Shown here one piece after another: positions 1,449-15,516 of a stretch of DNA of 17,690 nucleotides. A model generated the notes under the pieces. That model made no database searches and was not told the DNA's origin. It saw only the letters and a program-made list of their open reading frames with translations. The stretch's first letter is position 1. Each line of letters opens with the position of its first letter. A program made the position numbers and the translations under genes. The stretch is from Bacillota bacterium (GTDB lineage Bacteria > Bacillota > Bacilli > Alicyclobacillales > Alicyclobacillaceae), in NCBI GenBank assembly GCA_021816665.1, contig JAKAXI010000004.1:1-17690 (forward strand), read 5' to 3'.

Positions 1449-1835
1449 TCAACGCCAGGACGGGCGGTGCCAGCGCAGACAAATCGCAGCGACGAGCAGG
1501 CCGAGAGCCGCCCACAGCGCTGCCATCGCCAAAGGGCTAATCCCAGCGAGAATTCGGTCGACTGCAAAGAATGAACGGACTGCTGTGGCGTAAAGAGAGA
1601 CAGCGGCGTGCAGGCCGGCGGGGGAGCCCAGGCTGGCCCAAACCAATAAACAAGCCGTCACGACGAGGCCGCCTGCTGTTCCGAGGCCGACGACTGTCAG
1701 AGACCATGAGCCGCGCGTAGTTGCACGGTTTTCCTGTGTCCGCGCAATCTCAAGCAACCGCTCCTTTAACTCTGGCGGAGGCGTGGGGTGTGGCGCGCTT
1801 CGCGTTAACTGTTCAACGATGAAGTCGTTTTTCAC
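1449..1835 (-). CDS. Putative anti-sigma factor, two-TM membrane protein
   Basis: Its role is inferred from position: it is the second gene of the ECF sigma operon and overlaps the sigma gene by 23 bases, the usual arrangement for a cognate anti-sigma factor. The 128-aa product has a hydrophilic N-terminal region (residues 1-40, with a Pro-rich stretch and a helix around PELKERLLEIARTQ). Two membrane segments follow at about 45-69 and 98-120, then a short basic tail. The N-terminal helix would be the sigma-binding part. The zinc anti-sigma signature HxxxCxxC is absent, so this is not a canonical ZAS protein. Translation starts at GTG (1833-1835), with a strong AGGAGG site five to six bases upstream inside the end of the sigma gene. 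It may be distantly related to small anti-sigma proteins of Bacillus ECF systems, but no family is recognised with certainty. Confidence 0.72.
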   Translation of the reverse strand: MKNDFIVEQLTRSAPHPTPPPELKERLLEIARTQENRATTRGSWSLTVVGLGTAGGLVVTACLLVWASLGSPAGLHAAVSLYATAVRSFFAVDRILAGISPLAMAALWAALGLLVAAICLRWHRPSWR

Positions 1836-2346
1836 AATCTGCCTCCTTTTGCCAGCGCTTTTTCAACCGCTCGCGTCCTCGGTGCAGGTAGTTGCGGACC
1901 TGGAACAGCGTGGCGTCCATGACCGTTGCCACTTCGTGGTACGACAATTCTTCGCCGTAGAACAAGCTGATTGCCACGCGCTCTTTGTCCGGCAGTTCCC
2001 GCACCCAGTCCCAGATACGGGACTGTTCCCAGCGCAAAATCGCCTCATCCTCAGTGTTCCCCGGGTCAACCCAGGTCTCCATGTCGACCACGTCGTGTGA
2101 GCGCCAGCGCCACTGTGCTTGGCGCCGGGATTGCAAAAATGCTCGTGTTGCGATCGTTAACAGCCAGGTCCGCACGGAGGAGTCCCCGCGAAACTGCTCA
2201 AAGTGGCGGAACGCGCTCGTAAAAGTCTCTTGTGTCAGGTCTGCCGCGTCATGCGGATTTCCTGCGTAGCGAAGACACCAGCGATAAACATCCTCGTAGT
2301 AGTCCTCTACCCACTGTTGGTACAGCGATTGCGGTTCCTTGTTCAT
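1813..2346 (-). CDS. ECF-subfamily RNA polymerase sigma factor
   Basis: The 177-aa protein has the two-domain layout of group 4 (ECF) sigma factors. Region 2 spans about residues 14-80, with the core motif DLTQETFTSAFRHFEQFRGD and the following SSVRTWLLTIATRAFLQSRR. A short linker leads to region 4 (about 112-163), which contains LPDKERVAISLFYGEELSYHEVA-type helix-turn-helix residues and the RNYLHRGRERLKKRW recognition helix and tail. The start is ATG 2344-2346, supported by GGAGGG seven bases upstream. The frame stays open upstream to 2709, but that extension has no ribosome binding site and does not match the family. The gene overlaps the putative anti-sigma gene and is divergent from the DUF4097-like gene. 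A sigma-A-like promoter lies just upstream. The stimulus is unknown; the neighbours point to the cell envelope. Confidence 0.93.
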   Translation of the reverse strand: MNKEPQSLYQQWVEDYYEDVYRWCLRYAGNPHDAADLTQETFTSAFRHFEQFRGDSSVRTWLLTIATRAFLQSRRQAQWRWRSHDVVDMETWVDPGNTEDEAILRWEQSRIWDWVRELPDKERVAISLFYGEELSYHEVATVMDATLFQVRNYLHRGRERLKKRWQKEADCEKRLHR

Positions 2347-2377
2347 CGAGGAACCCTCCGTTTGTGTCATTATCTGC

Positions 2378-2406
2378 ATTATGCGCTTACGTGCTCTGAC
2401 CGACAA
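2378..2406 (-). promoter_or_regulatory. Probable sigma-A promoter of the ECF sigma operon
   Basis: Read on the minus strand, TTGTCG (complement of 2401-2406) and CATAAT (complement of 2378-2383) are separated by 17 bases. They match the -35 and -10 consensus at 4/6 and 5/6 positions. The -10 box lies about 30 bases before the sigma start codon. Confidence 0.55.
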
Positions 2407-2488
2407 GGTCTTTAGACTGATGTGAAACAAAACTTGAGTTCGGGGCCTCTCATAGAGGAAAGAGCTCGCATGGGGGTGAGTGACTGTG

Positions 2489-3328
2489 ATGTTGAAGAAG
2501 AGGACGAAGGTGGTCTCAGTTACCGTTCTGTCCTTGGCGTTTGTAGTCGTACTGGCCGGGATGGTCGCTGTCCTGTCACGGACGGTGAGTGGCGGACTGG
2601 CCAGCTTTCGGTTTAACGGGGTTTCGACCCCGGTCGCTGGCGGATATCTTGACAGACAACTCCAGCAGTCCTTTACCGTGCCATCCACGAAGACCTTTGG
2701 CTTTTCCACGCCGCTTGGCGAGTTGACTGTACTTCCAACTTCCGGTCGACAAATTCAGGTGGACGCTTCTGTTCAGGTTTCAGGTGCCTTCGGAGTTCCT
2801 CCGTCGCAGGCGCAAAAACAGATTCAGTTCACATCAACCAACAACCAAAACGGTAGGAACGTAACCCTGACTTACCCGCATGGTACACTCCACAGCGCCA
2901 CGATCACGATTTACGTCCCACAGGGAGCACGTTTGCAGGTAGAGAACTCTCTTGGGAAGATTCGCGTACAGGGCGGTTCCTACCAAGACCTGAGTTTACA
3001 CGCGAACATGGGAGCTGTGGACGTGTCTGCGGCTGTCACCGACGCTTTGTCTATTCAGGCGAACATGGGTGAAATCTCGTACACTGGTCCCCTCGCGAAG
3101 CAAAATAACTTTGTCAATAACATGGGCGGCATCACAGTCCATGACACAAAGGTGCAGAAGGTACAGTACAACTTGTCGACAAGCTTGGGGCAATCAACCG
3201 TCAATGTACCGAGCGCAAACCTGGCGGCATCCGGTAATCAGCTATCGGATACAGTACCAGGATTGGGCCCACTTGCAGTCCTGACTTGCACCAATAACAT
3301 GGGCTCGATTCATTTCCAGGGAGTGTGA
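2489..3328 (+). CDS. Membrane-anchored DUF4097-like putative adhesin / beta-helix protein
   Basis: A short basic N-terminus (LKKRTK) is followed by one membrane segment at about residues 8-30 and then a long extracellular domain, so the protein should be anchored with its bulk outside. The C-terminal half repeats a beta-strand motif built on NMG: ANMGAVDV, ANMGEISY, NNMGGITV and NNMGSIHF, with the related NSLGKIRV and TSLGQSTV. This pattern is typical of the DUF4097/LiaG-like proteins that accompany envelope-stress systems in Bacillales. ATG 2489 is chosen because GGGGGTGA (2472-2479) stands nine bases before it. GTG 2480 and GTG 2486 are also in frame, but 2480 would overlap the ribosome binding site. 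The gene is divergent from the ECF sigma operon and eight bases before a small membrane-protein gene. It is probably an effector or target of the sigma factor; this is inference. Confidence 0.78.
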   Translation: MLKKRTKVVSVTVLSLAFVVVLAGMVAVLSRTVSGGLASFRFNGVSTPVAGGYLDRQLQQSFTVPSTKTFGFSTPLGELTVLPTSGRQIQVDASVQVSGAFGVPPSQAQKQIQFTSTNNQNGRNVTLTYPHGTLHSATITIYVPQGARLQVENSLGKIRVQGGSYQDLSLHANMGAVDVSAAVTDALSIQANMGEISYTGPLAKQNNFVNNMGGITVHDTKVQKVQYNLSTSLGQSTVNVPSANLAASGNQLSDTVPGLGPLAVLTCTNNMGSIHFQGV

Positions 3329-3335
3329 CTGCACA

Positions 3336-3767
3336 ATGAGCGTGATACCGTTCGGGTCATTTGCGTGGATCCCGGTGCTCGGCATTCTCTTTCCCGTCTT
3401 CGTGATCGCTGTGATTTTCGGTTTCATCGTGTTGATGCGTTACTTGAAGTACCGCGAACGCATGTTGCTTGCGCAACGGGGGTTTGACCCGGCAGACCTT
3501 CAGCCGTGGTCTCGCCTCGACCGAAACGGTTCCCCGGAGCGCCAGTTACGCAGTGGCATCATCACCTCTTTGGTCGGAGTGGCGTTGCTCGTCGGTTTGT
3601 GGACACTAGGAACAGGTCCGTGGCTGCTCGGTGGCCTGATCCCACTCGCAGTTGGTATCGGAGAGTTGCTCACATTTGTCTTGACGGCACCGACGAGACC
3701 TGAACAGGGTAACCATGACAACCAAGATCAGAAACCCCGTGACCAAGGTGACGACAAGCGCTTCTAA
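3336..3767 (+). CDS. Small membrane protein (DUF6249-like), partner of the DUF4097-like gene
   Basis: The 143-aa protein has one membrane segment at about residues 9-34, then a cytoplasmic segment of about 40 residues (RYLKYRERMLLAQRGFDPADLQPW). Two further hydrophobic segments lie at about 74-113, followed by a very hydrophilic tail rich in N, Q, D and K. The YxxRERMALxERG-like part after the first helix resembles small Firmicute and Bacteroidetes membrane proteins often found in ECF sigma/anti-sigma clusters. I base that on the pattern only. The ATG at 3336 follows the previous stop by seven bases, and AGGGAG at 3318-3323 gives a somewhat distant ribosome binding site. It is almost certainly cotranscribed with the upstream DUF4097-like gene. 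Function unknown. Confidence 0.7.
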   Translation: MSVIPFGSFAWIPVLGILFPVFVIAVIFGFIVLMRYLKYRERMLLAQRGFDPADLQPWSRLDRNGSPERQLRSGIITSLVGVALLVGLWTLGTGPWLLGGLIPLAVGIGELLTFVLTAPTRPEQGNHDNQDQKPRDQGDDKRF

Positions 3768-3774
3768 CCCCACC

Positions 3775-3803
3775 GAATACTCCGTCCCGCCCGCGGAAGA
3801 CTA
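3775..3803 (+). promoter_or_regulatory. Candidate sigma-G-type promoter of the germination operon
   Basis: GAATA (3775-3779) fits the forespore sigma-G -35 pattern GHATR. AAGACTA (3797-3803) matches the -10 pattern CATACTA at five of seven positions, with a 17-base spacer. It lies 32 bases before the first ger start codon. Germinant receptor operons are known to be sigma-G dependent, which supports the call, but the -10 box is imperfect. Confidence 0.45.
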
Positions 3804-3829
3804 GAAGAAACTGCGGCAAGGGACGGGGT
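3779..3829 (+). promoter_or_regulatory. Leader hairpin overlapping the gerAB ribosome binding region
   Basis: ACTCCGTCCC (3779-3788) pairs with GGGACGGGGT (3820-3829) in a 10-bp stem with one G-T wobble. A nested stem CCGC/GCGG (3791-3794 with 3813-3816) lies inside. The 3' arm contains the only plausible ribosome binding purines (AAGGGACGGGG) for ATG 3835. It may act as a weak terminator for the upstream operon (only TTT follows) or hide the ribosome binding site in read-through transcripts. Confidence 0.5.
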
Positions 3830-3834
3830 TTCCC

Positions 3835-4926
3835 ATGAGTACTTCACAATCACATAAGTCACTGACCCGATTGCAATTGGTGATGTTGGTTCTCACAACT
3901 GCAGGGGTTCTCGACCACGTCATTATCTTGCCGCTTTTGCTTCGCAACGCCCAGCGCGATGCGTGGGTTGCAGTCCTGATTGGGGGAGCGATTCTGGTTG
4001 GCAGCGTCCCGGCATTGACGTGGGTCTCTCACAGGGCTGGGCAGATGCACGTGACGACTTGGCTGCGCAATCATTACCCCGCACCGATTGTTTATCTGGT
4101 GCTTGGAATCCTCGCGCTGCAATTATTTCTCATCGGTTCTGTGGCGCTTCGTGAGACCTGTACATGGGCAAAAGTTACGTACTTGCCAGAAACTCCGCTG
4201 ACAGGGATTGTCCTTCTGTTAGCGACGGGCTGCTATTTTGCGGCAAAGAGTGGACTTGAGACAATCGCCATAGCAAACGGAATTCTCTTTCCTATAATTA
4301 TTGCGCTTGGCGTGTTTGTCGCTGTCGGCAACATCCAGAGCAAGGATTACACCTACATTCGACCGATACTGGCACACGGTCTGAATGGCGTGTGGCCAGC
4401 TGTCTGGGTTGCGGTTGCAGCGTTCTCGGAAATCGTACTGGTATTGTTTTTAACACCGCACGTGGATGGGCAGGTTCCATGGTATGTTTTGATGATCATT
4501 GCGATTGGCTTAATCGGCCTGACTCTTGGGCCGTTACTCGGTGCCATTGCCGAGTTTGGACCTTGGGAGGCCGCTCGCCTGCGCTACCCTGCTTACGAAG
4601 AGTGGCGACTACTCACATTTAAACACTTTTTCGAGCATGTCGACTTCTTCTCTATATACCAGTGGCTCGGCGGTGCGTTTATCCGCATCGCGCTCTCTCT
4701 GTACCTGATTGTTGACTTGCTTCAACCTTCGACGGTTCGTGCGAGATTTTGGACTCTGACTGGGTGTGCGTTGGCGTTCTGTATGTTTGCACTCGTGCCG
4801 GTGTCAGATGAGGTGTTTCTCCAATTTATTGAGCAGTTGTACATGCCCGTCACATTGTACGTAATGGCTGGTGTGTTTGGGATGATGCTGATGTTTTCTA
4901 CACGAAAGGCGGGGCGTTCACGATGA
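3835..4926 (+). CDS. gerAB: Spore germination permease, GerAB/GerKB family
   Basis: This is the B subunit of a Ger-type nutrient germinant receptor in the spore inner membrane. The family belongs to the amino acid/polyamine/organocation transporters and binds the germinant. The 363-aa length is standard. About ten membrane segments are visible, beginning at residues 13-36 (LQLVMLVLTTAGVLDHVIIL). The late family motif around residues 268-286 (HVDFFSIYQWLGGAFIRI) corresponds to the usual E-R-[ILV]-D...W...AFIKI signature. The first helix lacks the common GxGxLxLP sequence and reads AGVLDHVIILPLLL, which may bear on ligand choice. It is the first gene of a B-A-C operon, and its stop overlaps the next start as ATGA (4923-4926). 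The ribosome binding region lies in a predicted hairpin, and a sigma-G-like promoter precedes it. Confidence 0.9.
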   Translation: MSTSQSHKSLTRLQLVMLVLTTAGVLDHVIILPLLLRNAQRDAWVAVLIGGAILVGSVPALTWVSHRAGQMHVTTWLRNHYPAPIVYLVLGILALQLFLIGSVALRETCTWAKVTYLPETPLTGIVLLLATGCYFAAKSGLETIAIANGILFPIIIALGVFVAVGNIQSKDYTYIRPILAHGLNGVWPAVWVAVAAFSEIVLVLFLTPHVDGQVPWYVLMIIAIGLIGLTLGPLLGAIAEFGPWEAARLRYPAYEEWRLLTFKHFFEHVDFFSIYQWLGGAFIRIALSLYLIVDLLQPSTVRARFWTLTGCALAFCMFALVPVSDEVFLQFIEQLYMPVTLYVMAGVFGMMLMFSTRKAGRSR

Positions 4927-6392
4927 GACGGAGGGGTCAATTAGGGAATGGAGTTGACGTCCTTTTGCAGCGGTCGGTGGATGAGCGATTCTCCGACTGT
5001 GCGGCAGCTGTACAAGTGCTGTTTGCCACGGCAGCTGACGTGCAGGTCACGCACCTGTTCCCGTCAAAAAAAACCCGAATCGGCTGTGAGTTAATTCTGG
5101 TTCTTTGTCAGGGGCTGTATGATGTCAACCGATTTGAGGACGTCGTTCTGCCCCGTCTTCAACTTGCTGTTTCTGGAGACTTGCTAGCGACCACACCTGA
5201 ACAATTGATCACCGGCTTGAATATGCCCAACGTGCGGCGTATCTCAACATACTCTGAAGCTGCTGGTGCGGTTTTGTCCGGTCAACTCGTTGTCTTTGTC
5301 AGTGGGGGTGCAGTCGCGATTGACATTGCCAAGCACCCGAACCGCAAGCCTGAAGACAGTAATCTGGAGGTCACGCTGTTCGGCGGTCGTGACGGATTTA
5401 TCGAAGACCTGACCACCAACGTTGCGCTGGTTCGCAAACGAGTCAACACACTGGCTCTGTGTGTGGAGGAGTACCAAATCGGTCGGTTGAGTAAGACGAG
5501 AGTAGCTCTCTTGTTTCGCGGCGATGCATCCAATCCGGCATCGGTAGAGGAAGTACGTCGCCATCTCGTCCACAATGACATTGAATCGGTGGAGTCAGGG
5601 ACAGAGTTGGTCGAGTTGCTCAACCCTTCCAAGTACGCCTTTATTCAAAACTACAGGCTCAGCGGTCGTCCGGATTTTGTCGTACGCTGCTTGCGTGAAG
5701 GTCGGTTTGCCCTGTTTATCGATGGGGCGCCTGTCGCGATGCTTGCACCTGTCACGCTTACCTTCCTGTTACGGGCAGCCGATGACATGTACGTTTCTTT
5801 CCCATTCGTGGTCTTTGAACGTATCCTGCGCTATCTGGCGTTCGTCATGGCCCTTTTTTTGCCTGGGTTTTACGTGGCAATCACGGCGATGCATCCCGAC
5901 CAGGTTCCGCTGTCACTGCTCGCTACGCTAGTCAACTCCAGACGTGGCGTCCCGTTCTCCACACCGCTCGAGGCAATTGGGATGTTGATTCTATTTGAAA
6001 TCTTCAAGGAGTCCGGGACGCATTTGCCACAGCCGGCTGGCAATACCTTGTCTGTTGTGGGCGGATTAATCATCGGTGACGCGGCCATTCGTGCCGGCTT
6101 GACGAGCCCGGCACTGGTCGTTGTGATATCGGCGAGTGCCGTGACTCTGTACGCCATCGCCAACCACGCCCTTGCAGGGGCGGTCTCTCTGCTTCGCATC
6201 GGGATTCTGATCATCGCCGCCGCCTTCGGTATGTATGGGTTTATCTTGTCGTGCATTTTTGTCGTCACCTATTTGGCACAGATCCGCTCGTTTGGCACAC
6301 CGTTTTTGTTTCCAGTCTCGCCCTTCCGCGGAGTTGCCTTTCTACGTACCTATTGGTCCAACTGGTCAACGCGGCGGAGACGATCCACATGA
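4923..6392 (+). CDS. gerAA: Spore germination protein, GerA/GerKA family
   Basis: This is the A subunit of the germinant receptor: a soluble N-terminal part followed by a membrane domain, recently shown for the family to form ion channels. The 489-aa length is typical. Family signatures are clear: GGRDGFIEDL (154-163, usually GPxExFxE), RPDFVVRCLREGRFALFIDG (249-268) and FSTPLEAIGMLILFEIFKE (345-363). These are followed by LPQPAGNTLSVVGGLIIGDA and AGLTSPALVVV. Membrane segments occupy about residues 300-455. The very C-terminus is basic (STRRRRST). Start ATG 4923 overlaps the gerAB stop, and its own stop (6390-6392) overlaps the gerC start, indicating translational coupling of all three subunits. 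The GP of the usual GPRE motif is replaced by GGRD, a mild deviation. Confidence 0.94.
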   Translation: MRRRGQLGNGVDVLLQRSVDERFSDCAAAVQVLFATAADVQVTHLFPSKKTRIGCELILVLCQGLYDVNRFEDVVLPRLQLAVSGDLLATTPEQLITGLNMPNVRRISTYSEAAGAVLSGQLVVFVSGGAVAIDIAKHPNRKPEDSNLEVTLFGGRDGFIEDLTTNVALVRKRVNTLALCVEEYQIGRLSKTRVALLFRGDASNPASVEEVRRHLVHNDIESVESGTELVELLNPSKYAFIQNYRLSGRPDFVVRCLREGRFALFIDGAPVAMLAPVTLTFLLRAADDMYVSFPFVVFERILRYLAFVMALFLPGFYVAITAMHPDQVPLSLLATLVNSRRGVPFSTPLEAIGMLILFEIFKESGTHLPQPAGNTLSVVGGLIIGDAAIRAGLTSPALVVVISASAVTLYAIANHALAGAVSLLRIGILIIAAAFGMYGFILSCIFVVTYLAQIRSFGTPFLFPVSPFRGVAFLRTYWSNWSTRRRRST

Positions 6393-7567
6393 GGAAAAAG
6401 ATTCTGGTGGCGTTGCTCTCCGCCTTTGGACTGGTACCTCTGCTTTCGGGCTGCTGGGGGTATAAAGAGTTTGATCACCAACTCTATCCCCATGCCATCG
6501 CCGTCGACTATAAGGATGGAGAGTACACAGCGTACATTCAGGTGCTCGATATGAGTGAGTTGGGCAAAACGGAATCCGGAGGTGGCCAGGCTAGGTCGGG
6601 CACGTGGATTGGTGTTGCTCGTGGCAGGACGTTGGATGAAGCCGCACACAAGCTTTATCTAGTGACGCCGCGCAGCTTGAACTGGGGACACGTCAACGCC
6701 TTCGTGTTCACCACGCATGTCTTGGACGAGCCGGACTGGTTGCGGGTTTTTGGGGTTTTTACACGAATGAACCAGTTTCGCTACACACCGTGGGTGTTTT
6801 TCACCAAGGAAACGCCACAAGACCTTCTCAGCAGTCAACCAATCCTTGAAAAATCCCCAGTCTACTCCGGTCTCGGCGACCCCTGGGAACTGTACAACCA
6901 GAGTTCATTCCTTCGTCCGTTGCGGTTTAACACGCTACTCGCGCAACTGAGAGAACCGACTCGCCCACACCTACTGCTAGAACTGGCAATTGAACGCGGA
7001 CGGTGGTCGCAACCCCAGGACGACCAGTCACACGACACTCTGACAGCTGAGGGCTACGCGCTTTTAGACCGGCACCTCCACTACGCCGGAGACATGAAGC
7101 TCAAAGAAGCCTCTGGGCTTCGCTGGGCAGACCCAAAGATGATGCGAAGCAGTATTAACTTATATCAAAATAAGAAAGTCCTGGGTAGTGCCGTTATGGA
7201 CCACACGTCGTTTAAGGTGAGCGAGGTTCGAACGGCAAGAGGTATCCGGTATCACATCCGAGTGAATGTGAGAGGGGCGGTCATAGAGCGCTACGGCACC
7301 AACACGTTGGCTGAATTGGACAAGTCAGCTGCCGCCGAGATCGGCCGAGAAATTGAGTCCACCTACCTGAAGGGATTAGAGTATCACGTCGACGTATTCG
7401 GTCTTGAAGACCATTTGTACCGTCATCACCCCGATTGGTATGAGAGTCTTGGCCACGGAGACACCACTAGCCTTACCCCAAGTTCAATCGCTTCACTAGA
7501 GGTGAAAGTCAAGTTGACAACAGGGATGAGGACGTTGGAAGGACTGAAGACGGAAGCACAGTCCTGA
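6389..7567 (+). CDS. gerAC: Spore germination lipoprotein, Ger(x)C family
   Basis: This is the C subunit of the germinant receptor, a lipoprotein on the outer face of the spore inner membrane. The signal peptide is short: MRKK, a hydrophobic stretch, then the lipobox LLSGC with Cys22 as the lipidated residue. Residues W23-G24-Y25-K26-E27 match the CW[DGS]xxE start of mature GerC proteins. The rest (392 aa in all) includes the N-terminal domain with LGKTESGGGQARSGTWIGVARGRTLDEA and a C-terminal domain ending EVKVKLTTGMRTL. ATG 6389 is chosen because it places the lipobox correctly and overlaps the gerA stop as ATGA. The frame is open upstream to 6251, inside gerA, but that extension would put 46 residues before the signal peptide. 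It is the last gene of the operon, and no clear terminator follows before the sulfur operon promoter. Confidence 0.92.
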   Translation: MRKKILVALLSAFGLVPLLSGCWGYKEFDHQLYPHAIAVDYKDGEYTAYIQVLDMSELGKTESGGGQARSGTWIGVARGRTLDEAAHKLYLVTPRSLNWGHVNAFVFTTHVLDEPDWLRVFGVFTRMNQFRYTPWVFFTKETPQDLLSSQPILEKSPVYSGLGDPWELYNQSSFLRPLRFNTLLAQLREPTRPHLLLELAIERGRWSQPQDDQSHDTLTAEGYALLDRHLHYAGDMKLKEASGLRWADPKMMRSSINLYQNKKVLGSAVMDHTSFKVSEVRTARGIRYHIRVNVRGAVIERYGTNTLAELDKSAAAEIGREIESTYLKGLEYHVDVFGLEDHLYRHHPDWYESLGHGDTTSLTPSSIASLEVKVKLTTGMRTLEGLKTEAQS

Positions 7568-7578
7568 CCGCCGACAGC

Positions 7579-7608
7579 TTGACAACCGCGCACGCTGGCT
7601 AGTATTAT
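7579..7608 (+). promoter_or_regulatory. Sigma-A promoter of the sulfur/persulfide operon
   Basis: A perfect -35 box TTGACA (7579-7584) and TATTAT (7603-7608) are separated by 18 bases. The predicted start point is near 7614, just before the CsoR-family operator, so repressor binding there would block initiation or clearance. Confidence 0.8.
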
Positions 7609-7623
7609 ATACCCCGTACCCTA

Positions 7624-7641
7624 TATACCCTAAAGGGTATA
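7624..7641 (+). promoter_or_regulatory. CsoR/CstR-type operator
   Basis: TATACCC (7624-7630) and GGGTATA (7635-7641) form a perfect 7-bp dyad around TAAA. The pattern ATACCC-n-GGGTAT is the hallmark of operators bound by CsoR-family tetramers. An extra half-site ATACCCC (7609-7615) and a further TACCC (7617-7621) lie upstream, partly in the -10 region. The cognate regulator is encoded three genes downstream at 8443. Confidence 0.8.
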
Positions 7642-7664
7642 AACAGGACAGGAGAGATGACTGC

Positions 7665-7973
7665 ATGGCTGGCATTGAGAATATCTACCCGGTCGATGTA
7701 TACGAGCGGCTGCACAGTGGAGATCAGCTGCTTGTCGTCGACGTTCGTGAAGCGAGTGAAGTTGCATACGGCAAAATCCCTGGAGCTAAGCATATTCCCC
7801 TGGGCGAACTGGCAGCTCGCGCTGGCGAACTTAACCGTGACGAGGAGACAGTTCTGGTGTGTCGAAGCGGAGGTCGAAGCGCCGCTGCGTGTGAATACCT
7901 CCATTCGATCGGTTTTAACAACATCAAAAATATGGTGGGCGGCATGAGTGGCTGGACCTGGCGGACGGAGTAG
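7665..7973 (+). CDS. Single-domain rhodanese-like sulfurtransferase (cytosolic)
   Basis: The 102-aa protein is one rhodanese domain and carries sulfane sulfur as a cysteine persulfide. The active-site loop is CRSGGRS with catalytic Cys66. DVREASEVAYGKIPGAKHIP (26-45) is the conserved CH2A-type motif, and GGMSGW near the C-terminus completes the fold. No signal peptide is present, so it acts in the cytosol. The start ATG has GGAGAG eight bases upstream. It is the first gene after the promoter and CstR-type operator and lies 29 bases before a second, membrane-bound rhodanese. With CstR, thioredoxin and DUF302 in the same operon, the likely job is transfer or removal of persulfide sulfur. The acceptor is unknown. 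Confidence 0.93.
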   Translation: MAGIENIYPVDVYERLHSGDQLLVVDVREASEVAYGKIPGAKHIPLGELAARAGELNRDEETVLVCRSGGRSAAACEYLHSIGFNNIKNMVGGMSGWTWRTE

Positions 7974-8002
7974 TCTCGCCAACACAAGAGGAGGATTGCT
8001 GA

Positions 8003-8383
8003 ATGACTTGGGCATGGGTGGCATTGGTTGTCGTGGTGGTTGGCTTTTTCGTGTTGCGGATGCGGCCGGCGAAAGGTGTGATGTCCGTGACTGCGGCGGA
8101 CATGAAACAGCTGATGAATGACAAACGTCAGACAGCAGGCATGCAGTTCATCGATGTTCGGGAACCAAGCGAATACCGCAGTGGTCACGCCCAAGGTTTT
8201 AAGAACATCCCGCTGGGTCAGCTCAAGAATCATTTGGGCGAGTTGAACCGTGATCAGCCAGTCGTCGTAATGTGCCACAGCGGCGCCCGGAGCACCCAGG
8301 CTGCACGTATGCTTGCGAAGCAGGGCTTTAAGGATGTTCGAAATGTCCGTGGCGGCATGATGGCATGGGGATCCCGGCGTTGA
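8003..8383 (+). CDS. Membrane-anchored rhodanese-like protein
   Basis: This 126-aa protein has one N-terminal membrane segment (about residues 4-19, AWVALVVVVVGFFVL) followed by basic RMRPAK, so the rhodanese domain should face the cytoplasm. The domain contains FIDVREPSEYRSGHAQGFKNIP and the active-site loop CHSGARS with catalytic Cys91. The final GGMMAW is the usual last motif. AGGAGG lies eight bases before ATG 8003. Its active-site loop differs from that of the preceding rhodanese (CHSGARS against CRSGGRS), so the pair is probably specialised: one soluble and one tethered, for instance next to a membrane sulfide oxidase or transporter encoded elsewhere. It resembles YqhL/YtwF-type Bacillus rhodaneses. 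Confidence 0.92.
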   Translation: MTWAWVALVVVVVGFFVLRMRPAKGVMSVTAADMKQLMNDKRQTAGMQFIDVREPSEYRSGHAQGFKNIPLGQLKNHLGELNRDQPVVVMCHSGARSTQAARMLAKQGFKDVRNVRGGMMAWGSRR

Positions 8384-8390
8384 CCTGTCC

Positions 8391-8420
8391 TTACCCTCTC
8401 GCCTGCGCGGGAGATATAAT
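8391..8420 (+). promoter_or_regulatory. Possible internal promoter with dyad before cstR
   Basis: A perfect TATAAT (8415-8420) lies 22 bases before the cstR GTG start. TTACCC (8391-8396) stands 18 bases upstream as a weak -35. The spacer holds a 7-bp dyad, CTCTCGC (8396-8402) with GCGGGAG (8407-8413), containing one wobble. It is not a CstR-type site. It may give the regulator and downstream genes basal expression independent of the main promoter. Confidence 0.45.
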
Positions 8421-8442
8421 GGGCGGCAAGGGGGAGTAAACC

Positions 8443-8706
8443 GTGGAGTACAACGATGCGATGCGTCACCGCCTGCGCCGGATTGAGGGGCAGGTGCGCG
8501 GCGTCATCGGCATGATGGAACAAGAAAAAGAGTGTAAGGATGTAGTGACACAACTGTCCGCGATTCGTTCAGCGGTGGACAGAGTCATCATGTACGTAGT
8601 TGGACAAAATATGGAGCAGTGCATTCGGGAAGAAGTGACGGGTGGCGGCGGCAATGCTGACCAAGTCATTCGTGAAGCGATTGAACTGCTTATGAAATCT
8701 CGCTAG
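8443..8706 (+). CDS. cstR: CstR-like persulfide-sensing repressor (CsoR/FrmR family)
   Basis: The 87-aa, all-helical CsoR-family protein begins with the family motif RLRRIEGQVRGVIGMME. The two sensor cysteines are Cys31 (in KECKDVVTQLSA) and Cys60 (in NMEQCIREE). These are the same residue numbers as the cysteines of Staphylococcus aureus CstR, which cross-link through sulfur when persulfides are present. Position 56, where copper-binding CsoR has its His ligand, is Asn, so copper sensing is unlikely. The tail VIREAIELLMKSR also matches CstR. The start is GTG 8443 with GGGGGAG upstream. The gene is embedded in a rhodanese-thioredoxin-DUF302 operon that has a matching ATACCC/GGGTAT operator, which fits autoregulated derepression by hydrogen sulfide-derived persulfides. 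A formaldehyde sensor (FrmR) is unlikely given the context. Confidence 0.9.
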   Translation: MEYNDAMRHRLRRIEGQVRGVIGMMEQEKECKDVVTQLSAIRSAVDRVIMYVVGQNMEQCIREEVTGGGGNADQVIREAIELLMKSR

Positions 8707-8719
8707 AGAAGGGTGAACA

Positions 8720-9037
8720 ATGGCATCCATTAAGGTGACAGACAAGGACTTTCAGAGTGTGATTCAAAGCGATAAGCCTGTACTCGTTGACTTCTGGGCG
8801 GCGTGGTGTGGACCATGCGTCATGATGGCACCGGTCTTAGAGGAGTTATCCGAAGAGGAAAGCGAACATCTCACCGTCGCAAAACTGAACGTTGACGAAA
8901 ACCCGCGAACTGCGTCTGCGTACGGCATCATGAGCATTCCGACAATGATGGTGTTCAAGAACGGTAAACCAATTCAGCAGTTGGTTGGTTTTATGCCAAA
9001 ACAGGTGCTCCGGAGTCGTTTGAAAGGCGTGCTCTAA
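8720..9037 (+). CDS. Thioredoxin
   Basis: A classical 105-aa thioredoxin, with the active site WCGPC (Cys30, Cys33) in FWAAWCGPC and cis-Pro74 in [11 protein letters not shown]-terminal GxxxxxxLxxxL-type helix follows ([13 protein letters not shown]). It has no signal peptide and acts in the cytosol. The gene lies 13 bases after cstR with GAAGGGTG as ribosome binding site, so it is cotranscribed. Within this operon it most likely reduces protein persulfides or rhodanese-bound sulfur, releasing sulfide, rather than serving as the housekeeping thioredoxin; this is inferred from context. The acidic helix [10 protein letters not shown] is slightly unusual but compatible with the fold. Confidence 0.95.
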
Positions 9038-9056
9038 TTCTCGAGGAGGGCTTGCG

Positions 9057-9458
9057 ATGACGAATCTTTTTCACTATAGCAAGGCGTCGGACAAGGGTGT
9101 AGACGAGGTCGTTGAAGCCCTTCGAGGCGCACTGGCTGAGCGCAAGTTTGGTGTCCTGTGGCAACTGGATATGACTCAGACACTGCAGGGAAAGGGCTTT
9201 GATTTCAAACAGCCCTACCGCATCCTCGAGGTTTGCAACCCATTCGAGGCAAATGGTGTCCTGACGCAGAATCCACTGGTTGGATACTTTCTGCCCTGCA
9301 AAATCGTCGTCTACGAAGATGAGGGCAAAACGCAGATCGGGTTGCCTTTACCGACGCTCCTCATCGACATGGTTGGAGATGACAAGTTGCGTGAAACTGC
9401 AGAACGCATCGAGGCGACTTTGAAGTCCGCAGTGGACGACGCTGCAAAAGATGAATAA
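9057..9458 (+). CDS. DUF302 domain protein
   Basis: The 133-aa protein matches the DUF302 pattern: an N-terminal helix (VDEVVEALRGALAERKFGVLW), then the core ILEVCNPFEANGVL, GYFLPCKIVVYED and GLPLPTLLIDMV. Two cysteines are visible, Cys60 in the conserved E-V-C-N-P site and Cys81 in LPCK; both sit in the most conserved parts. DUF302 proteins have no firmly established enzymatic role. They recur with sulfur-oxidation, thioredoxin and metal-stress genes, and a thiol-based role is plausible here. AGGAGGG precedes ATG 9057, 19 bases after the thioredoxin gene. It is the last gene of the operon; a strong terminator follows 40 bases downstream. Confidence 0.85.
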   Translation: MTNLFHYSKASDKGVDEVVEALRGALAERKFGVLWQLDMTQTLQGKGFDFKQPYRILEVCNPFEANGVLTQNPLVGYFLPCKIVVYEDEGKTQIGLPLPTLLIDMVGDDKLRETAERIEATLKSAVDDAAKDE

Positions 9459-9497
9459 CGGTTCAAAATCAAGAGATACGCAGGAACAAAAGTCATG

Positions 9498-9531
9498 ATG
9501 CCGCTGCCGAGGCTTTCGGCGGCGGTATTTT
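9498..9531 (+). terminator. Intrinsic terminator of the sulfur operon
   Basis: CCGCTGCCGA (9501-9510) pairs with TCGGCGGCGG (9516-9525) in a 10-bp GC-rich stem with one T-G wobble and a 5-base loop. The tail TATTTT (9526-9531) follows. Confidence 0.88.
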
Positions 9532-9664
9532 CATGTCACACGCCTCCATAAGATCGAGTATGAAGAAGGTATGTGTTTGCCGGGTCCTGTGATAGACTGC
9601 CAACAAGGGACAAACTGTGGTCATACCTGACGAGACAAGTATCAGACCGGCTGGGGGAGATTGA

Positions 9665-11656
9665 ATGGCGCTTGTTACGCCAGCGCAAGAATATAACGAT
9701 GCATCCATCCATGTCCTCGAAGGCCTGGAAGCCATCCGTAAGCGTCCCGGCATGTACGTTGGCGGTACTGGCGTACAGGGGTTCCATCACCTGTTTAAAG
9801 AGGTCATTGACAACGCAGTGGATGAGGCACTTGCCGGGTACTGCGACTGGATAGACGTGACGATCCACGAAGACCAAAGCCTGGGTGTGCAGGACAACGG
9901 GCGAGGGATCCCGTTTGGCATACATGAAACCGGTAAGCGCACAGTTGAGGTTGCGATGACCGTGCCGCACAGCGGTGGAAAGTTTGGCGACAAGGACAGC
10001 GGCTACACGGTGTCCGGCGGGCTACACGGCGTCGGCTTGACAGCGGTAAACGCGCTCTCGAAGTGGACTCAGGTGACTATCTGGCGGGATGGGCAGCGTT
10101 ACGAACAAACCTACCGCAGCGGCCCAACTGATGACGGCAAGCGAATTCGCATTGGCGAACCGGATCAGCCGACGATTGCGAAAGACACGACGCACGCGCG
10201 GGGAACCTTGATTCGGTTTCTTCCGGACAGCGAAGTGTTTGGTCACCTGCACTTCCAAGTTGGCATCGTCGAGGAACGGATCCGAATGATGGCCTACCTC
10301 AACCCGGGACTGACCATCACCTTGACGGATCTGCGTACGAGTGACGAGCGCCGGGTGTTTAGCTTCGAGGGCGGGTTATCTGCCTTTGTCGACTTTCTCA
10401 ATGAAGGGAAAAAGACTTTACATACACCGGCCTCTTTTTCCGGGACTTCCGGGGACATTACGGTCGATATCGGCCTACAGTATACGGACGGGTACGCTGA
10501 GACGCTCGCGAGTTTTGTCAACTGTATTCCGACGAAGAGCGGTGGTACACACGTCCGTGGCTTTAAAGCAGCCTTCACGCGCACGTGCAACGACTACGCA
10601 AAGACGAACGGCCTGTTAAAACCAGGCCAGGACAACCTCGAGGGAGACTTGTTGCGCGAAGGTATGACTTGTGTGTTGTCGATCCGAATCCCCAATCCGG
10701 AGTTCATTGGTCAGACGAAGGACGAACTTTCGAACAAGGAAGTTCAGAACATCGTCAGCACCATCGTGACTGAGCAGCTCGGTGCTTACCTTGACCAAAA
10801 CCGCGAGTTTGCGACCAATCTCATCCAGCGCGCCATTCTCTCGAAACGCGCGCGAGATGCTGCCAAGAAGGCCGCTGAAGACGTCCGTACAGGCAGAGAT
10901 AAAAAGGACAAAAACGGCCGTCGCAAAGTCCTGGTGGAGAAGCTCACACCGCCGCAGAGTCACGATTACGAGAAAAACGAACTGTTCATCGTCGAGGGAG
11001 ACTCAGCAGGTGGTTCTGCCAAACAAGGTCGAGACTTCCGCCACCACGGCATCCTGCCGCTGCGCGGCAAGTCCTTGAACGTCGAGAAGGAGACCGACCT
11101 CGCGAAGATCTTGAAGAACGCCGAGATCGCGGCGATCGTCGACTCCATTGGGGCTGGGATTGGGTCATCGTTCGACTTGTCGCAAGCCAAGTACGGCAAA
11201 GTCATTATCATGAGCGATGCTGACCCGGACGGTGGGCACATTCAGTCGCTCCTGATCACGCTCTTCTACAGCTACATGCGTCCGCTCGTCGAAGCTGGGC
11301 GTCTGTACGTCGCCATGCCGCCGCTCTATAAACTGACCTATCAGTCAGGCAAGGGGAAATCCAAGCAGCAGGAAATCGTGTACTGCTGGACCGACGATGA
11401 ATTGGACGATTTGCGCCGCGACCTCGCGAAACAGAAGGTGTCTTTTGAACTGCAGCGGTACAAGGGACTTGGTGAGATGAACCCGGATCAACTGTGGGAG
11501 ACCACGATGAACCCGGAGACGCGCACGTTGATTCAGGTCGATGTGAACGACCCGAGCATCGCGGAGCGCCGCATCACGACACTGATGGGCAGTAACTCTG
11601 ACCTGCGCAAGCAGTGGCTGTACGAAAACATCGACTTTGACTCGTACGAAGAATAA
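9665..11656 (+). CDS. parE: DNA topoisomerase IV subunit B (ParE)
   Basis: This is the ATPase subunit of the type IIA topoisomerase that unlinks replicated chromosomes. The 663-aa length fits ParE. The GHKL ATPase has EVIDNAVDEA (Glu46, Asn50), DNGRGIP (77-83) and GGLHGVG (118-124). The transducer domain follows, then the TOPRIM domain with VEGDSAGG (metal-binding Glu444) and the acidic triad Asp518-x-Asp520-x-Asp522 in SDADPDGGH. QRYKGLGEMN and TTLMGSNSDLRKQW close the protein. Pairing with parC directly downstream, and the absence of the recF/gyrA context, favour ParE over GyrB. TOPRIM residues DPDGGHIQSLL differ from the more usual DVDGAHIRTLL, a mild variation near the metal site. GGGGAG lies five bases before ATG 9665. 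No clear promoter was found in 9532-9664. Confidence 0.93.
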   Translation: MALVTPAQEYNDASIHVLEGLEAIRKRPGMYVGGTGVQGFHHLFKEVIDNAVDEALAGYCDWIDVTIHEDQSLGVQDNGRGIPFGIHETGKRTVEVAMTVPHSGGKFGDKDSGYTVSGGLHGVGLTAVNALSKWTQVTIWRDGQRYEQTYRSGPTDDGKRIRIGEPDQPTIAKDTTHARGTLIRFLPDSEVFGHLHFQVGIVEERIRMMAYLNPGLTITLTDLRTSDERRVFSFEGGLSAFVDFLNEGKKTLHTPASFSGTSGDITVDIGLQYTDGYAETLASFVNCIPTKSGGTHVRGFKAAFTRTCNDYAKTNGLLKPGQDNLEGDLLREGMTCVLSIRIPNPEFIGQTKDELSNKEVQNIVSTIVTEQLGAYLDQNREFATNLIQRAILSKRARDAAKKAAEDVRTGRDKKDKNGRRKVLVEKLTPPQSHDYEKNELFIVEGDSAGGSAKQGRDFRHHGILPLRGKSLNVEKETDLAKILKNAEIAAIVDSIGAGIGSSFDLSQAKYGKVIIMSDADPDGGHIQSLLITLFYSYMRPLVEAGRLYVAMPPLYKLTYQSGKGKSKQQEIVYCWTDDELDDLRRDLAKQKVSFELQRYKGLGEMNPDQLWETTMNPETRTLIQVDVNDPSIAERRITTLMGSNSDLRKQWLYENIDFDSYEE

Positions 11657-11682
11657 ATCGGTGAATAGGCCGCAGGCCGCGA

Positions 11683-11707
11683 GGGTACCTGAGTTCGCCA
11701 GGTACCC
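11683..11707 (+). promoter_or_regulatory. Perfect hairpin between parE and parC
   Basis: GGGTACCTG (11683-11691) and CAGGTACCC (11699-11707) form a perfect 9-bp stem with a 7-base loop. The sequence after it (TGTTCGG) has no T-run, so full termination is unlikely. It may stabilise or process the parE-parC transcript, or be a protein-binding site. It lies 30 bases before the parC start. Confidence 0.5.
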
Positions 11708-11737
11708 TGTTCGGCCAACTGAAAAGGGGAGACCTGA

Positions 11738-14176
11738 ATGACAGAAAAGACCTTGCAGACCGACATCGCGGAACTGCTCGGGGACCGCTTTGGGCGGTAC
11801 TCTAAATACACAATTCAACACCGCGCCATCCCGGATGCCCGAGACGGACTGAAACCCGTGCAACGGCGCATTCTGTACGCGATGTATATGGCGGGGAACA
11901 CGCCGGACAAAGGTTACCGCAAGTCTGCCAAAACCGTCGGCGACGTCATGGGTAACTTCCACCCGCACGGCGATACCTCAATCTACGACGCGATGGTGCA
12001 CATGGCGCAGCCGTTCAAAACGAACGAGCCGATGATCGACGGGCACGGGAACTGGGGTTCGATCGACCGCGATCCACCAGCCGCCATGCGCTACACCGAA
12101 GCGCGGTTGTCTGCATACGCAATTGAGCTACTTACGGACATCCGCAAAGACACGGTTCGCATGATCCCGAACTTTGACGAGACGACCGATGAGCCGATGG
12201 TGCTTCCTGCCAGGCTGCCAAACCTGCTCATCAACGGTGCATCTGGCATTGCGAGTGGCTTTGCGACGAACATCCCGTCGCACAACCCGAAGGATGTCGT
12301 TGAAGCGTGTATTGCCTATCTGAAAAACAGCGATATCTCGAACGAAGCGCTGATCGATATCGTGCAGGCCCCAGACTTCCCGACGGGCTGCGAAGTGATG
12401 GATGAGAAGGGCATTCGCGCGATGTACACGACAGGCTCGGGCAGTTTTATGATGTCGGCGCGGCTCGAGGTTGAGCACCCGAAAAAGGGCAACCCCCAGC
12501 TTGTCTTCTCGCACCTTCCCTACAACGCAGTGAAACAGCAGATTGTCATTGCGCTGCAGGAAATTGTCCTCAACCGTGACATTGAAGGCATTGTCGAAGT
12601 CCGGGATGAGACGGACCGCAAACACGGAATGACGGGCGCTCGCATCGTCGTGGAACTGAAGAAGGGGCTGTCGGACGATCAAGTTGACTCGATCGTCGCG
12701 TACCTGTACAAAAACACAGACCTGATGTCTCGCTATGCGGCGAACATGACCGCGATCGTGGACGGGCGGCCAGAGAAACTCGATCTGAAGAAGTTTGTCG
12801 CGGCCTACGTCGAACACCAGCGCGACGTCATCCGGCGGCGCACGCAGTTTGACCTCGACCGCGCCAAAGAGCGGTTTCACATCGTCGAGGGCTACATTAA
12901 GGCGCTGCAAAGCCTCGACGAAGTGATTCGGATCATCCGCGAGTCGCAGGACCGCAAAGACGCGGTCGAACAGTTGACGAGCCGCATTGAACTGACCGAG
13001 ATCCAAGCGAACGCAATTCTCGACCTGCGCCTGTACCGCCTGACGAACCTCGAAGTGGCAAGCTTCCAGAAGGAGTGGGAAGAACTGAAGAAGACGATCG
13101 CAAAGCTCGAGAGCATTCTCGCGAGCCCAAAGCTGCTCGACAAGGTGATTTCGACTGAGTTGAGCGACTTCGTCAAGCCATATACGCACGAACGTCGTTC
13201 ACCGATTAAGGCGGAAGTGGTCGAACTCAACGTCGACGTCGCGATGACGATCCCGGAAGAAGAGGTCTACGTGGTTTTGACCAAAAACGGCTATATTCGT
13301 CGACTCAGTAAACGCGCCTACATGGGCGTTGAGCGCATCGACTCGATGAGTCTTAAACTCGGTGACAGCGTCCAACTGACACTTCTGGTCAAGACTACGG
13401 ACACGCTGCTCTTGTTCACGACCGGGGGTGTCTATTACTCTTTACTCGCGTATAAGATCCCAGAGGGGCGCTGGAAAGACGAAGGCAGTCCACTGCACAC
13501 AGTGGTGCCATTCGGGACGGGAGAGACAATCGCAGACATTGTGGCGGTCGCCGACTTTAACGCCGAGAAGTCAGTGTGCTTCGTGACTGCACTCGGACTT
13601 GTCAAAAAAACGACGCTGAAGGAGTACCAGACAGACCGCTCTGTGGCTGTGAAAGCACTGAAACTGAAGGAAGGCGACGAGGTTGCGACAGTGTTCCTGA
13701 CGGACGGCGACGACCGCATTGTAGCGCTGACCGAACGTGGGTATGTCGGTCTCTATACCCAAGAGGACATTGGCGACATTGGCAAAAACGCATCTGGTTC
13801 GAAACTGATTGTCCTGTCGAAGAACGACCGGGTGTTGCAAGCCTCTGCAGTTCACCGGGAAAAGCCGTTCTACGTTGTGCTGTTTGAGTCGCACGGTTAC
13901 TTCAGGACGGTGTACTCACAGCGGATCCCGATCAAACACCGGGGCAGCAAGGGTACTCCCGCATGGAAAGGACTAGGCGCGGACGACAGAGTCGTACTTG
14001 GCGTCGCACTCGAGGCGACTCCGGGTGATACGTTGCAAGGCGCGTACGTCGTGAACGGACAGGTCATTACGCCATTCGCGATCGACGTGAAACCTACGCC
14101 TGCGGAACCGGCGTTGTACGCGCCGCTCGACCTCCAGTCCGTTGTGACCGATGTCATCTTAATGCCGAAAAAGTAA
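11738..14176 (+). CDS. parC: DNA topoisomerase IV subunit A (ParC)
   Basis: This is the DNA cleavage-religation subunit, partner of ParE. At 812 aa it matches Firmicute ParC. The winged-helix/tower region starts near residue 25 ([19 protein letters not shown]). The DNA gate has [13 protein letters not shown] (75-87) and AMRYTEARL with catalytic Tyr119 preceded by Arg118. A long coiled-coil region (about 340-450) precedes the C-terminal beta-pinwheel (about 490-812). The quinolone-contact positions equivalent to Ser80 and Glu84 of other ParC proteins read Thr80 and Asp84. A degenerate GyrA-box-like sequence KHRGSKG occurs at about 733-739; a true QRRGGKG box is absent, supporting ParC over GyrA. 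GGGGAG precedes ATG 11738. The next gene starts 12 bases after the stop. Confidence 0.94.
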
Positions 14177-14188
14177 GGAGTGTTACGC

Positions 14189-15496
14189 ATGCATGAGGCA
14201 GCAAAGCGGTTAAATGAGGTGCTTGAGCAGAACGTTCCACACGTGTACGAGATGCTGTCTGAGTTAGGGCGGGCGTTGTTCTTTCCGAAGGAAGGGATAC
14301 TCAACCAGTCTGCAGAGGCGAAGGCGAAAGCAAAGCGTTTCAACGCCACCATCGGAATTGCCTTGGAAGATGGAGTGCCGATGCACCTCGATGTCATTCA
14401 GTCCCACCTTGCAGACTTTTCGCCAAACGACTTGTACAACTACGCGCCGCCGGCTGGAAAGCCTGAGCTGCGTTCGCTGTGGCGCGAGAAGTTGCTGGAA
14501 GAGAACCCGTCCATGCAGGGAAAGCACTTCGGGAATCCGATTGCGACGAACGCGCTCACGCATGGCCTTTCGATTGTCGCTGACCTGTTCGCAGATGCAG
14601 GCGATGCCGTCATCCTGCCCGATAAGAACTGGGAGAACTACGAGCTGACGTTTGGCGTGCGGCGGGGGGCCCGAATGGTGACGTACCCGCTGTACGACGC
14701 ATCGGGATCGTTCAATGCTGCTGGCCTCGAGCAGGCAATCCTCAGCCAGAAGGACCGCGGCAAAGCGATCGTCCTGCTCAACTTCCCGAACAACCCGACT
14801 GGCTACACACCGAGTATCGAAGAGGGCGATGCAATCGTTGCCGCGATCGAAAGCGGGGCCAAGGCGGGGGTAAACGTCGTTGCAGTCACAGACGACGCGT
14901 ACTTCTTCCTGTTCTTCGAGGAGTCGCTGAAAGAGTCTCTGTTCGGCAAGCTGTGCGACCTGCACCCGCGCATTCTGCCTGTCAAAGTCGACGGCGCGAC
15001 GAAGGAGGAGTTTGTCTGGGGCTTTCGCGTCGGCTTTCTCACCTTTGGCGCAGAGTCTGACCAGGCCCTCGCAGCCCTCGAGCAAAAAGCGATGGGCATT
15101 ATCCGGTCGACCATTTCTTCGGGTTCGCACCCGTCGCAGACGTTCGTTCTGAAGGCCCTGCAAGCTCCTGAGTTCAAGCAGCAGAAGCAGGAGAAGTTCG
15201 AGATCATGAAAGGCCGAGCCAACCGCGTCAAGACGGTGCTCGACAGCGGGCGCTTTGATGAGGCGTGGCGCTATTACCCGTTCAACTCTGGCTACTTCAT
15301 GTGTCTCGAGCTAAAGCGCGTGAAGGCGGAGGAGCTACGCGTCGCGCTGCTCGAGCGGCAGGGCATCGGGACGATCGCGCTCGGTCAACACGACCTGCGC
15401 ATCGCCTTCTCATGCATCGAGGAACCGGACATTGAGGCGCTCTTCGACGCGATTTACGAAACCGAGCGGGAACTGGCGGGATCGACTCAAAACTGA
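14189..15496 (+). CDS. Class I/II aminotransferase (aspartate/aromatic type, PLP-dependent)
   Basis: This fold-type I PLP enzyme of 435 aa most likely transfers the amino group of an aspartate- or aromatic-type amino acid to a 2-oxo acid. Visible signatures are NYAPPAGKPELRSLWRE near residue 84, NFPNNPTGYTPS (198-209), DDAYFFLF (235-242) and the PLP-lysine region GATKEEFVWGFRVGF. Lys272 is the probable Schiff-base residue and Arg280 the phosphate or substrate contact. A C-terminal arginine in LRIAFSC fits the substrate carboxylate site. ATG 14189 is chosen because AAGGAG (14175-14180) lies eight bases before it; GTG 14180 overlaps that site. The gene directly follows parC and is probably cotranscribed, an unusual partner for topoisomerase IV. 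The exact substrate cannot be read from sequence. Confidence 0.88.
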   Translation: MHEAAKRLNEVLEQNVPHVYEMLSELGRALFFPKEGILNQSAEAKAKAKRFNATIGIALEDGVPMHLDVIQSHLADFSPNDLYNYAPPAGKPELRSLWREKLLEENPSMQGKHFGNPIATNALTHGLSIVADLFADAGDAVILPDKNWENYELTFGVRRGARMVTYPLYDASGSFNAAGLEQAILSQKDRGKAIVLLNFPNNPTGYTPSIEEGDAIVAAIESGAKAGVNVVAVTDDAYFFLFFEESLKESLFGKLCDLHPRILPVKVDGATKEEFVWGFRVGFLTFGAESDQALAALEQKAMGIIRSTISSGSHPSQTFVLKALQAPEFKQQKQEKFEIMKGRANRVKTVLDSGRFDEAWRYYPFNSGYFMCLELKRVKAEELRVALLERQGIGTIALGQHDLRIAFSCIEEPDIEALFDAIYETERELAGSTQN

Positions 15497-15516
15497 GTGC
15501 GCTTCGCACCACCGCA

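Follow-up and report, generated by a model that had tools for sequence, protein, structure and literature searches.

The repressor CstR of Staphylococcus aureus, for which Cys31 and Cys60 are named as the dithiol pair, is encoded in a cst operon consisting of tauE, cstR, cstA, cstB and sqr (PMC5480029). Related arrangements have been described elsewhere: the cst-like operon of Enterococcus faecalis combines CstR with two rhodaneses (Rhd), RhdA and RhdB, and a coenzyme A (CoA) persulfide reductase is a target of the same regulator (PMC9405070); the YrkD cluster of Bacillus licheniformis MW3, which senses sulfane sulfur, unites a CstR-like repressor with a rhodanese, a thioredoxin (Trx; YdfQ), DsrE, TusA, a persulfide dioxygenase (PDO) and TauE (PMC9918477). 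Clustering of CstR-type regulators with two rhodaneses (PMC9405070) or with thioredoxin (PMC9918477) is thus already known, and so is the linkage of DUF302, a protein family, to a CsoR-family regulator, two rhodaneses and TauE, as in the SUL module of Arthrobacter plasmids (PMC6305408). Here we describe a five-gene operon at positions 7579-9531 of a 17,690-nucleotide stretch of DNA (the window; contig JAKAXI010000004.1, positions 1 to 17,690, assembly GCA_021816665.1) from a member of the Alicyclobacillaceae. This operon probably serves a sulfane-sulfur (persulfide/polysulfide) response under CstR control, and most likely it is a reduced version of a nine-gene operon of its family.

The open reading frame (ORF) listing gives five same-strand ORFs separated by short gaps, with 29 bases between the first two, and the features of the operon are as follows.

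7579-7608, + strand: sigma-70-type promoter-like site TTGACA-18-TATTAT, 11/12 matches in the promoter scan
7608-7625, + strand: O1, imperfect upstream operator-like site TATACCCCGTACCCTATA
7624-7641, + strand: O2, operator TATACCCTAAAGGGTATA, a near-perfect palindrome with exact ATACCn6GGTAT at 7625-7640
7665-7973, + strand: Rhd1, soluble single-domain rhodanese, active loop CRSGGRS, Pfam Rhodanese 66.9 bits
8003-8383, + strand: Rhd2m, hydrophobic N-terminal anchor and rhodanese domain, active loop CHSGARS, Pfam Rhodanese 74.3 bits
8443-8706, + strand: CstR-type repressor, GTG start, C31/N56/C60, Pfam Trns_repr_metal 86.7 bits
8720-9037, + strand: thioredoxin, WCGPC, Pfam Thioredoxin 107.4 bits, TIGR01068 passed
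9057-9458, + strand: DUF302 protein, conserved Cys60 and Cys81, Pfam DUF302 72.7 bits
9501-9525, + strand: GC-rich hairpin, possible terminator, -19.5 kcal/mol, weak T tract

All five proteins exceeded the curated Pfam cut-offs. The thioredoxin scored 130.4 bits against TIGR01068 (cut-off 96.8) in addition to carrying the WCGPC motif, and the DUF302 protein matched both the family profile (PF03625) and the fold of 1q9u, although the titles of the good fold matches (1q9u, 1j3m and 7tj1) name no sulfur function. Positive residues behind the anchor suggest that the catalytic domain of Rhd2m is cytosolic. The families and order given in a preliminary description of this DNA, Rhd1, Rhd2m, CstR-type repressor, thioredoxin and DUF302, are therefore confirmed by Pfam and TIGR01068, as is its statement that PDO, TusA and SQR are missing from the operon: by ORF listing and Pfam, none of these genes lies between the five. 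The nearest named relative found was Alicyclobacillus sp. ALC3, whose DUF302 protein is 94% identical.

The repressor carries the CsoR/DUF156 domain (PF02583, 86.7 bits against a cut-off of 22.8), and has C31 and C60, with N56 in place of the usual His. In the CsoR family, the His at position 56 is a Cu(I) ligand. Among 62 CstR-type sequences from the fetched loci, C31 was present in 61, N56 in 60 and C60 in all 62, whereas His occupied position 56 in 8/10 weaker CsoR-family matches. The best PDB matches of the repressor, 7mq1 and 7mq3, are labelled copper-sensing repressor in the PDB text; we take them to be pneumococcal CstR.

Upstream of the first gene, O2 contains the published operator consensus of a sulfane-sulfur repressor, ATACCn6GGTAT (PMC7533328), and thus represents a predicted binding site of the CsoR/CstR kind at the repressor's own promoter. 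Where the preliminary description had counted one operator, we found two overlapping sites in tandem at the promoter, 7608-7625 and 7624-7641. As regards O1, TATACCCCGTACCGTA or ..GTGCCGTA precedes the first gene in 6/9 operons scanned. The promoter it had proposed is present at 7579-7608, but such sites are not rare (1 found in 2.3 kb scanned, 1.3 in shuffles), so that its weight comes from its placement at the operators. The single terminator is uncertain: a strong GC hairpin does stand at 9501-9525, but with a poor T tract, and the terminator scan called neither this hairpin nor any other at the operon end.

The family of the window has a nine-gene order, Rhd1-DsrE-TusA/Rhd-Rhd/PDO-TauE-Rhd2m-CstR-Trx-DUF302, in which the five genes reappear. 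All nine genes were called at L160 and L161 (both genome G011), L162 (G007) and L198 (G028), and at L162 the nine proteins were confirmed by Pfam. Most of the operon was present at L155, L157, L159 and L202. At L155, Trx was not called and Rhd1 looks broken, in two frames; at L157, L159 and L202, Rhd1 was not called, a contig end being reached at L157 and L202 but not at L159, and at L202 Rhd2m was not called either. Loci L204, L246 and L247 have the order Rhd1-DsrE-TusA/Rhd-PDO-TauE-CstR-DUF302, without Rhd2m and Trx, and L205 is a rearranged long form. The window and ALC3, which has the identical five-gene order at L033, keep both ends of the nine-gene operon and are without exactly DsrE, TusA/Rhd, Rhd/PDO and TauE; this exact form was found in two genomes only, that of the window (G000) and ALC3 (G002). 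The rhodanese-rhodanese-cstR-trx-DUF302 order is thus found again in ALC3, but the idea of a new, self-contained operon type is not supported, because the relatives carry the same set plus the four inner genes. Judged by gene order, the gene set is less "non-classical" than at first sight.

We consider it most likely that the five-gene operon was shortened from the nine-gene form by loss of the four inner genes. Loss is favoured over gain because TauE directly precedes Rhd2m-CstR also at L203 (same family), L206 and L211 (family f2). In the converse scenario, an older five-gene form would have received DsrE-TusA/Rhd-Rhd/PDO-TauE between its Rhd1 and Rhd2m genes and so become the nine-gene operon. 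This scenario is compatible with the branching order, which the tree leaves open, but we regard it as unlikely, given that the TauE-Rhd2m junction is probably the older one and that Bacillaceae DUF302 loci often have DsrE, TusA/Rhd and PDO near CstR. In a CstR+DUF302 tree of 31 rows of our choice, the window and ALC3 pair with support of 100/100; the tree leaves the place of the pair among the long operons unsettled, which counts against the proposed direction, so that loss is argued from gene order and not proven.

Compared with the described systems, the nine-gene operon of the relatives has about the content of the YrkD cluster, of which rhodaneses, repressor and thioredoxin alone remain in the window, without NreBC, SQR or PDO (PMC9918477); DUF302 is the addition of the window, the term occurring 0 times in that report. 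The S. aureus cst operon shares the Cys31/Cys60 dithiol repressor with the window, and TusA/Rhd, Rhd/PDO and TauE with the relatives of the window, but among the five genes there is none like TauE, CstA (TusA/Rhd), CstB (PDO/Rhd) or SQR (PMC5480029). The five genes also differ from the E. faecalis arrangement: CstR and two rhodaneses are present in cis, whereas a CoA-disulfide-reductase-like gene is found only in trans, at a separate operator-bearing locus in G000 and ALC3, and thioredoxin and DUF302 are added (PMC9405070). The SUL module contains a sulfur dioxygenase and a major facilitator superfamily (MFS) transporter, lists no thioredoxin and calls its DUF302 protein hypothetical (PMC6305408). 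In sox clusters of Acidithiobacillia and others, DUF302 likewise stands with sulfur-oxidation genes, but in a periplasmic setting and as a 191-aa protein with a speculated role in trithionate oxidation (PMC5037610). Finally, the ScCsoR circuit of Streptomyces coelicolor resembles the window in its CsoR-like sulfane-sulfur repressor, its ATACCn6GGTAT operator and the two sites at the Scpdo promoter, and includes PDO, a rhodanese and a sulfite transporter; the four genes listed for it comprise neither DUF302 nor thioredoxin (PMC7533328).

We scanned whole genomes for exact ATACCn6GGTAT, with the reversed pattern as control, and found 4 sites (control 0) in G000, 16 (1) in ALC3, 3 (2) in G027, 5 (0) in G032 and 5 (1) in G011. 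The four sites of G000 fall at three places, namely the five-gene operon, a TauE gene on contig C35 (two sites; Pfam 150.8 bits) and a CoA-disulfide/persulfide-reductase-like ORF on contig C68. The latter is interrupted by the contig end in G000 but complete in ALC3, where it has a C-terminal rhodanese domain, as does the E. faecalis CoA persulfide reductase (PMC9405070); its best PDB matches are 3icr and 8a56 (CoA-persulfide reductase). The operator lies within the first codons of the longest reductase-like ORF, so that translation probably starts later. These further operator-bearing sulfur loci in the same genome also speak against a self-contained operon, and they seem to supply some of the function that the five genes lack. 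In ALC3, 10 of the 16 sites are at sulfur genes (one each at the five-gene operon, the reductase-like gene and a TauE gene behind DsrE-TusA/Rhd, two each at a Rhd/PDO gene and a Rhd1-TauE locus, and three at a second CstR locus), the 11th lies across the point where a YgaP-like membrane ORF begins, and 5 are elsewhere. The second CstR-type gene of ALC3, with TauE, two rhodaneses and Rhd/PDO (L196:7119-10355; ALC3 1918119-1921355; three operators), is about 5-6 kb from the five-gene operon, and the two CstR-type paralogues could engage in cross-talk.

In G027, the three sites precede a Rhd2m-Trx-DUF302 unit, the Rhd1-DsrE-TusA genes of a PDO operon and a gene for a protein disulfide oxidoreductase. 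Sulfur or thiol-redox genes account for all five sites of G032, one being assigned solely through a core identical to that of a G027 site. In G011, 2/5 sites belong to rhodanese genes, one at the long operon and one at a rhodanese gene on its own. An exact site was found upstream of the first gene in 9/11 operons (ALC3 and 10 long forms of relatives). Taken together, the distribution of predicted operators points to a dispersed sulfur regulon, of which the five-gene operon looks like the transfer/reduction part. The G027 disulfide oxidoreductase (L266:800-1447; CPTC; TIGR02187, 272.8 against 185 bits), which has the exact operator upstream, is a possible further regulon member; its site also faces a divergent ORF on the other side.

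The cysteines that the preliminary description had singled out in DUF302 are indeed conserved: Cys60 was found in 115/116 and Cys81 in 116/116 DUF302 sequences, regardless of context, and both are invariant in a 27-sequence alignment that extends down to 33% identity. In 61 related genomes, a CstR-type gene (at least 60 bits, either strand) was located within 5 kb of 24 of the 59 DUF302 matches, whereas we estimate that genes placed at random, with 1-3 of them per 3-5 Mb, would be this close in about 1% of cases at most. With the identical order in ALC3 and the operons of the relatives, this proximity excludes chance adjacency in one strain. The final neighbourhood tally, in which contig ends may hide some neighbours, covered 56 of the 59 matches; the three excluded were G060:C4 (ORF below 60 bits), G005:C1 (20.8 bits) and G009:C81 (35.3 bits). 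At the 42 DUF302 loci of family f1, CstR (within 5 kb), Trx (within 600 bases) and Rhd2m (within 1.5 kb) were each found at 18 on the same strand, and PDO (within 6 kb) at 12; CstR was within this distance of DUF302 at 1/10 loci in family f2 and at 1/4 elsewhere. Six of the 42 f1 loci, each in a different one of the 11 genus g5 genomes, carry the Rhd2m-Trx-DUF302 unit without cstR. The exact operator precedes all six units and begins 9 to 48 bases ahead of the Rhd2m start as called; in the 9-base case the called ORF is the longest one and hence overlaps the operator. Four of these operators share one centre and two differ, with the half-sites kept. The cstR locus was read in two of the six genomes, G030 (L208) and G032 (L215), and in both it lies apart from the unit, together with the PDO operon. 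Exact operators before units that lack cstR are a stronger link between DUF302 and the CstR response than adjacency by itself.

Among the named genomes, we read 80 loci, mostly from Bacillaceae and with near-identical loci kept; one (L112) had no DUF302 ORF. At the remaining 79, a same-strand rhodanese was found within 2 kb at 35 and PDO within the stretch at 43. In a Nitrososphaerales archaeon (L110:5959-6870), a thioredoxin-like gene follows DUF302 after 6 bases, a pairing as in the window. We also read 8 plasmid regions out of 320 records with a DUF302 match: DUF302 was with sulfur genes in 4 (Sporosarcina, Cohnella, Secundilactobacillus and Rhodococcus), beside a multicopper oxidase in 2, and in neither context in 2. 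The annotation of the Secundilactobacillus plasmid lists a rhodanese, an FAD-dependent oxidoreductase, a rhodanese, a metal-sensitive regulator, two SHOCT proteins and DUF302, a set close to the cst-like set of E. faecalis.

Both CstR-type control with a sulfane-sulfur role and the participation of DUF302 in the sulfur system, as put forward in the preliminary description, are supported by these results. We propose that CstR occupies the tandem operators at the promoter and that persulfides would cross-link C31 to C60', releasing the repressor, a mechanism borrowed from characterised CstR proteins. The remaining genes would then process sulfane sulfur without oxygen. Rhodaneses carry sulfane sulfur on cysteine, and Rhd1 and the membrane-tethered Rhd2m may accept it from low-molecular-weight persulfides on their active cysteines. 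Thioredoxin, which is able to reduce persulfide to H2S (PMC9918477), would remove the sulfur as H2S and recycle the thiols, while DUF302 may use Cys60/Cys81 to cooperate with Rhd2m and thioredoxin, either carrying persulfide or being a client of thioredoxin. Other parts of the response would be provided in trans under the same operator, by the CoA-disulfide/persulfide-reductase-like enzyme and the TauE exporter. More tentatively, Rhd2m-Trx-DUF302 may constitute a module of the CstR regulon devoted to persulfide reduction, in which Rhd2m loads DUF302 Cys60/Cys81 with sulfur and thioredoxin releases it as H2S; we consider this less likely than not.

The preliminary description had envisaged a relay that carries persulfide sulfur from a membrane source to a cytosolic acceptor, or else its reductive release, in a self-contained operon. 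Spelled out, the relay would have Rhd2m receive persulfide sulfur generated at the membrane (by SQR, for instance) and hand it on via Rhd1 or DUF302 to the acceptor, the operon being a new and complete system. The reductive branch is the better fit, given the CoA-disulfide/persulfide-reductase-like gene that bears the operator in trans. The relay to an acceptor we find doubtful: the N-terminal anchor of Rhd2m would suit it, as would the company that Rhd2m keeps with Trx and DUF302 at loci apart from CstR, but the five genes encode neither an acceptor nor a membrane source and are a subset of a longer known kind, and the operator in trans is borne by a reductase-like gene instead of an acceptor. 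That DUF302, and perhaps the regulator too, might serve copper or general soft-metal/thiol stress, with the sulfur genes as mere companions, is very unlikely in our view. Within the CsoR family, copper sensors and persulfide sensors have similar operators (PMC7533328), and a multicopper oxidase is beside DUF302 in 2/8 plasmid regions; still, the repressor has N56, unlike 8/10 of the weaker CsoR-family matches with their His, there is no copper gene among the five, and the genes that bear the operator in G000 are of the sulfur or thiol-disulfide kind. Hardly any credence is due to ordinary sulfur delivery to a cofactor or to tRNA thiolation with the rhodaneses as donors: a MoeB-type model gives both rhodaneses their best NCBIfam scores, but these (61.7 and 68) are far below the cut-off of 449, the repressor and operators are of the stress type, and none of the five genes is biosynthetic.

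Several observations weigh against a sulfane-sulfur response operon under CstR control in which DUF302 takes part. TTHA1953, another CsoR-family sulfur regulator, is reported to have kept its DNA binding with NaHS in vitro (PMC10318464). The first-gene regions of L161 and L205 contain no exact site, and the count of 3 in G027 is hardly above its reversed control of 2, for which reason the G027 argument rests on the places of the sites and not on their number. At 16 of the 42 f1 loci, none of CstR, Trx, Rhd2m and PDO is near DUF302 on the same strand. Solitary DUF302 genes have an upstream consensus site in just 4/25 cases (random 2.3%, p 0.0025), or 2/16 after removal of close relatives. Among the 79 named-genome loci, no more than 32 have CstR within 5 kb and just two, ALC3 and the archaeon, have Trx within 2 kb, which indicates that the Trx link is mainly a trait of the window's family. 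The plasmid DUF302 genes beside a multicopper oxidase are from Peribacillus and Jeotgalibaca (L278 and L276, with SHOCT and DUF305 genes in Jeotgalibaca), a context for which a sulfur role must account. Finally, the source genome is about 2.07 Mb and 72.6% complete, so that PDO and SQR genes may yet be present in it.

Outside the operon, window positions 3722-7515 hold spore germination genes (permease, GerA and GerC) that are not in ALC3 at the corresponding place, where window 1-3722 and 7515-15505 are contiguous (1913400/1913406); one end of this indel is about 60 bases upstream of the promoter-like site. A gene at 16488-16973 on the minus strand encodes a protein that scores above the NCBIfam cut-off for CbpB, a cyclic-di-AMP-binding protein (139.6 against 125 bits). 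An 81-base tandem repeat (2.1 copies, 93%) occupies 17517-17690, reaching the window end, and short repeats are found at 15517-15558 (9 bases) and 17082-17144 (12/24 bases).

Our literature search found no claim of DUF302 in the CstR response, of an operator-bearing Rhd2m-Trx-DUF302 unit or of the shortened operon. If the module exists as proposed, it would, to our knowledge, provide the first function for DUF302, and this function would hold in part of the wide range of the family, which spans Bacilli, Lactobacillales and Actinomycetota. DUF302, a widespread family with two near-invariant cysteines, would thereby become a testable member of the bacterial persulfide response. The results also suggest that CstR-type regulons are modular, with an oxygen-using arm (PDO, TusA and TauE) and a rhodanese-thioredoxin-DUF302 arm that may be able to stand alone under the same operator.

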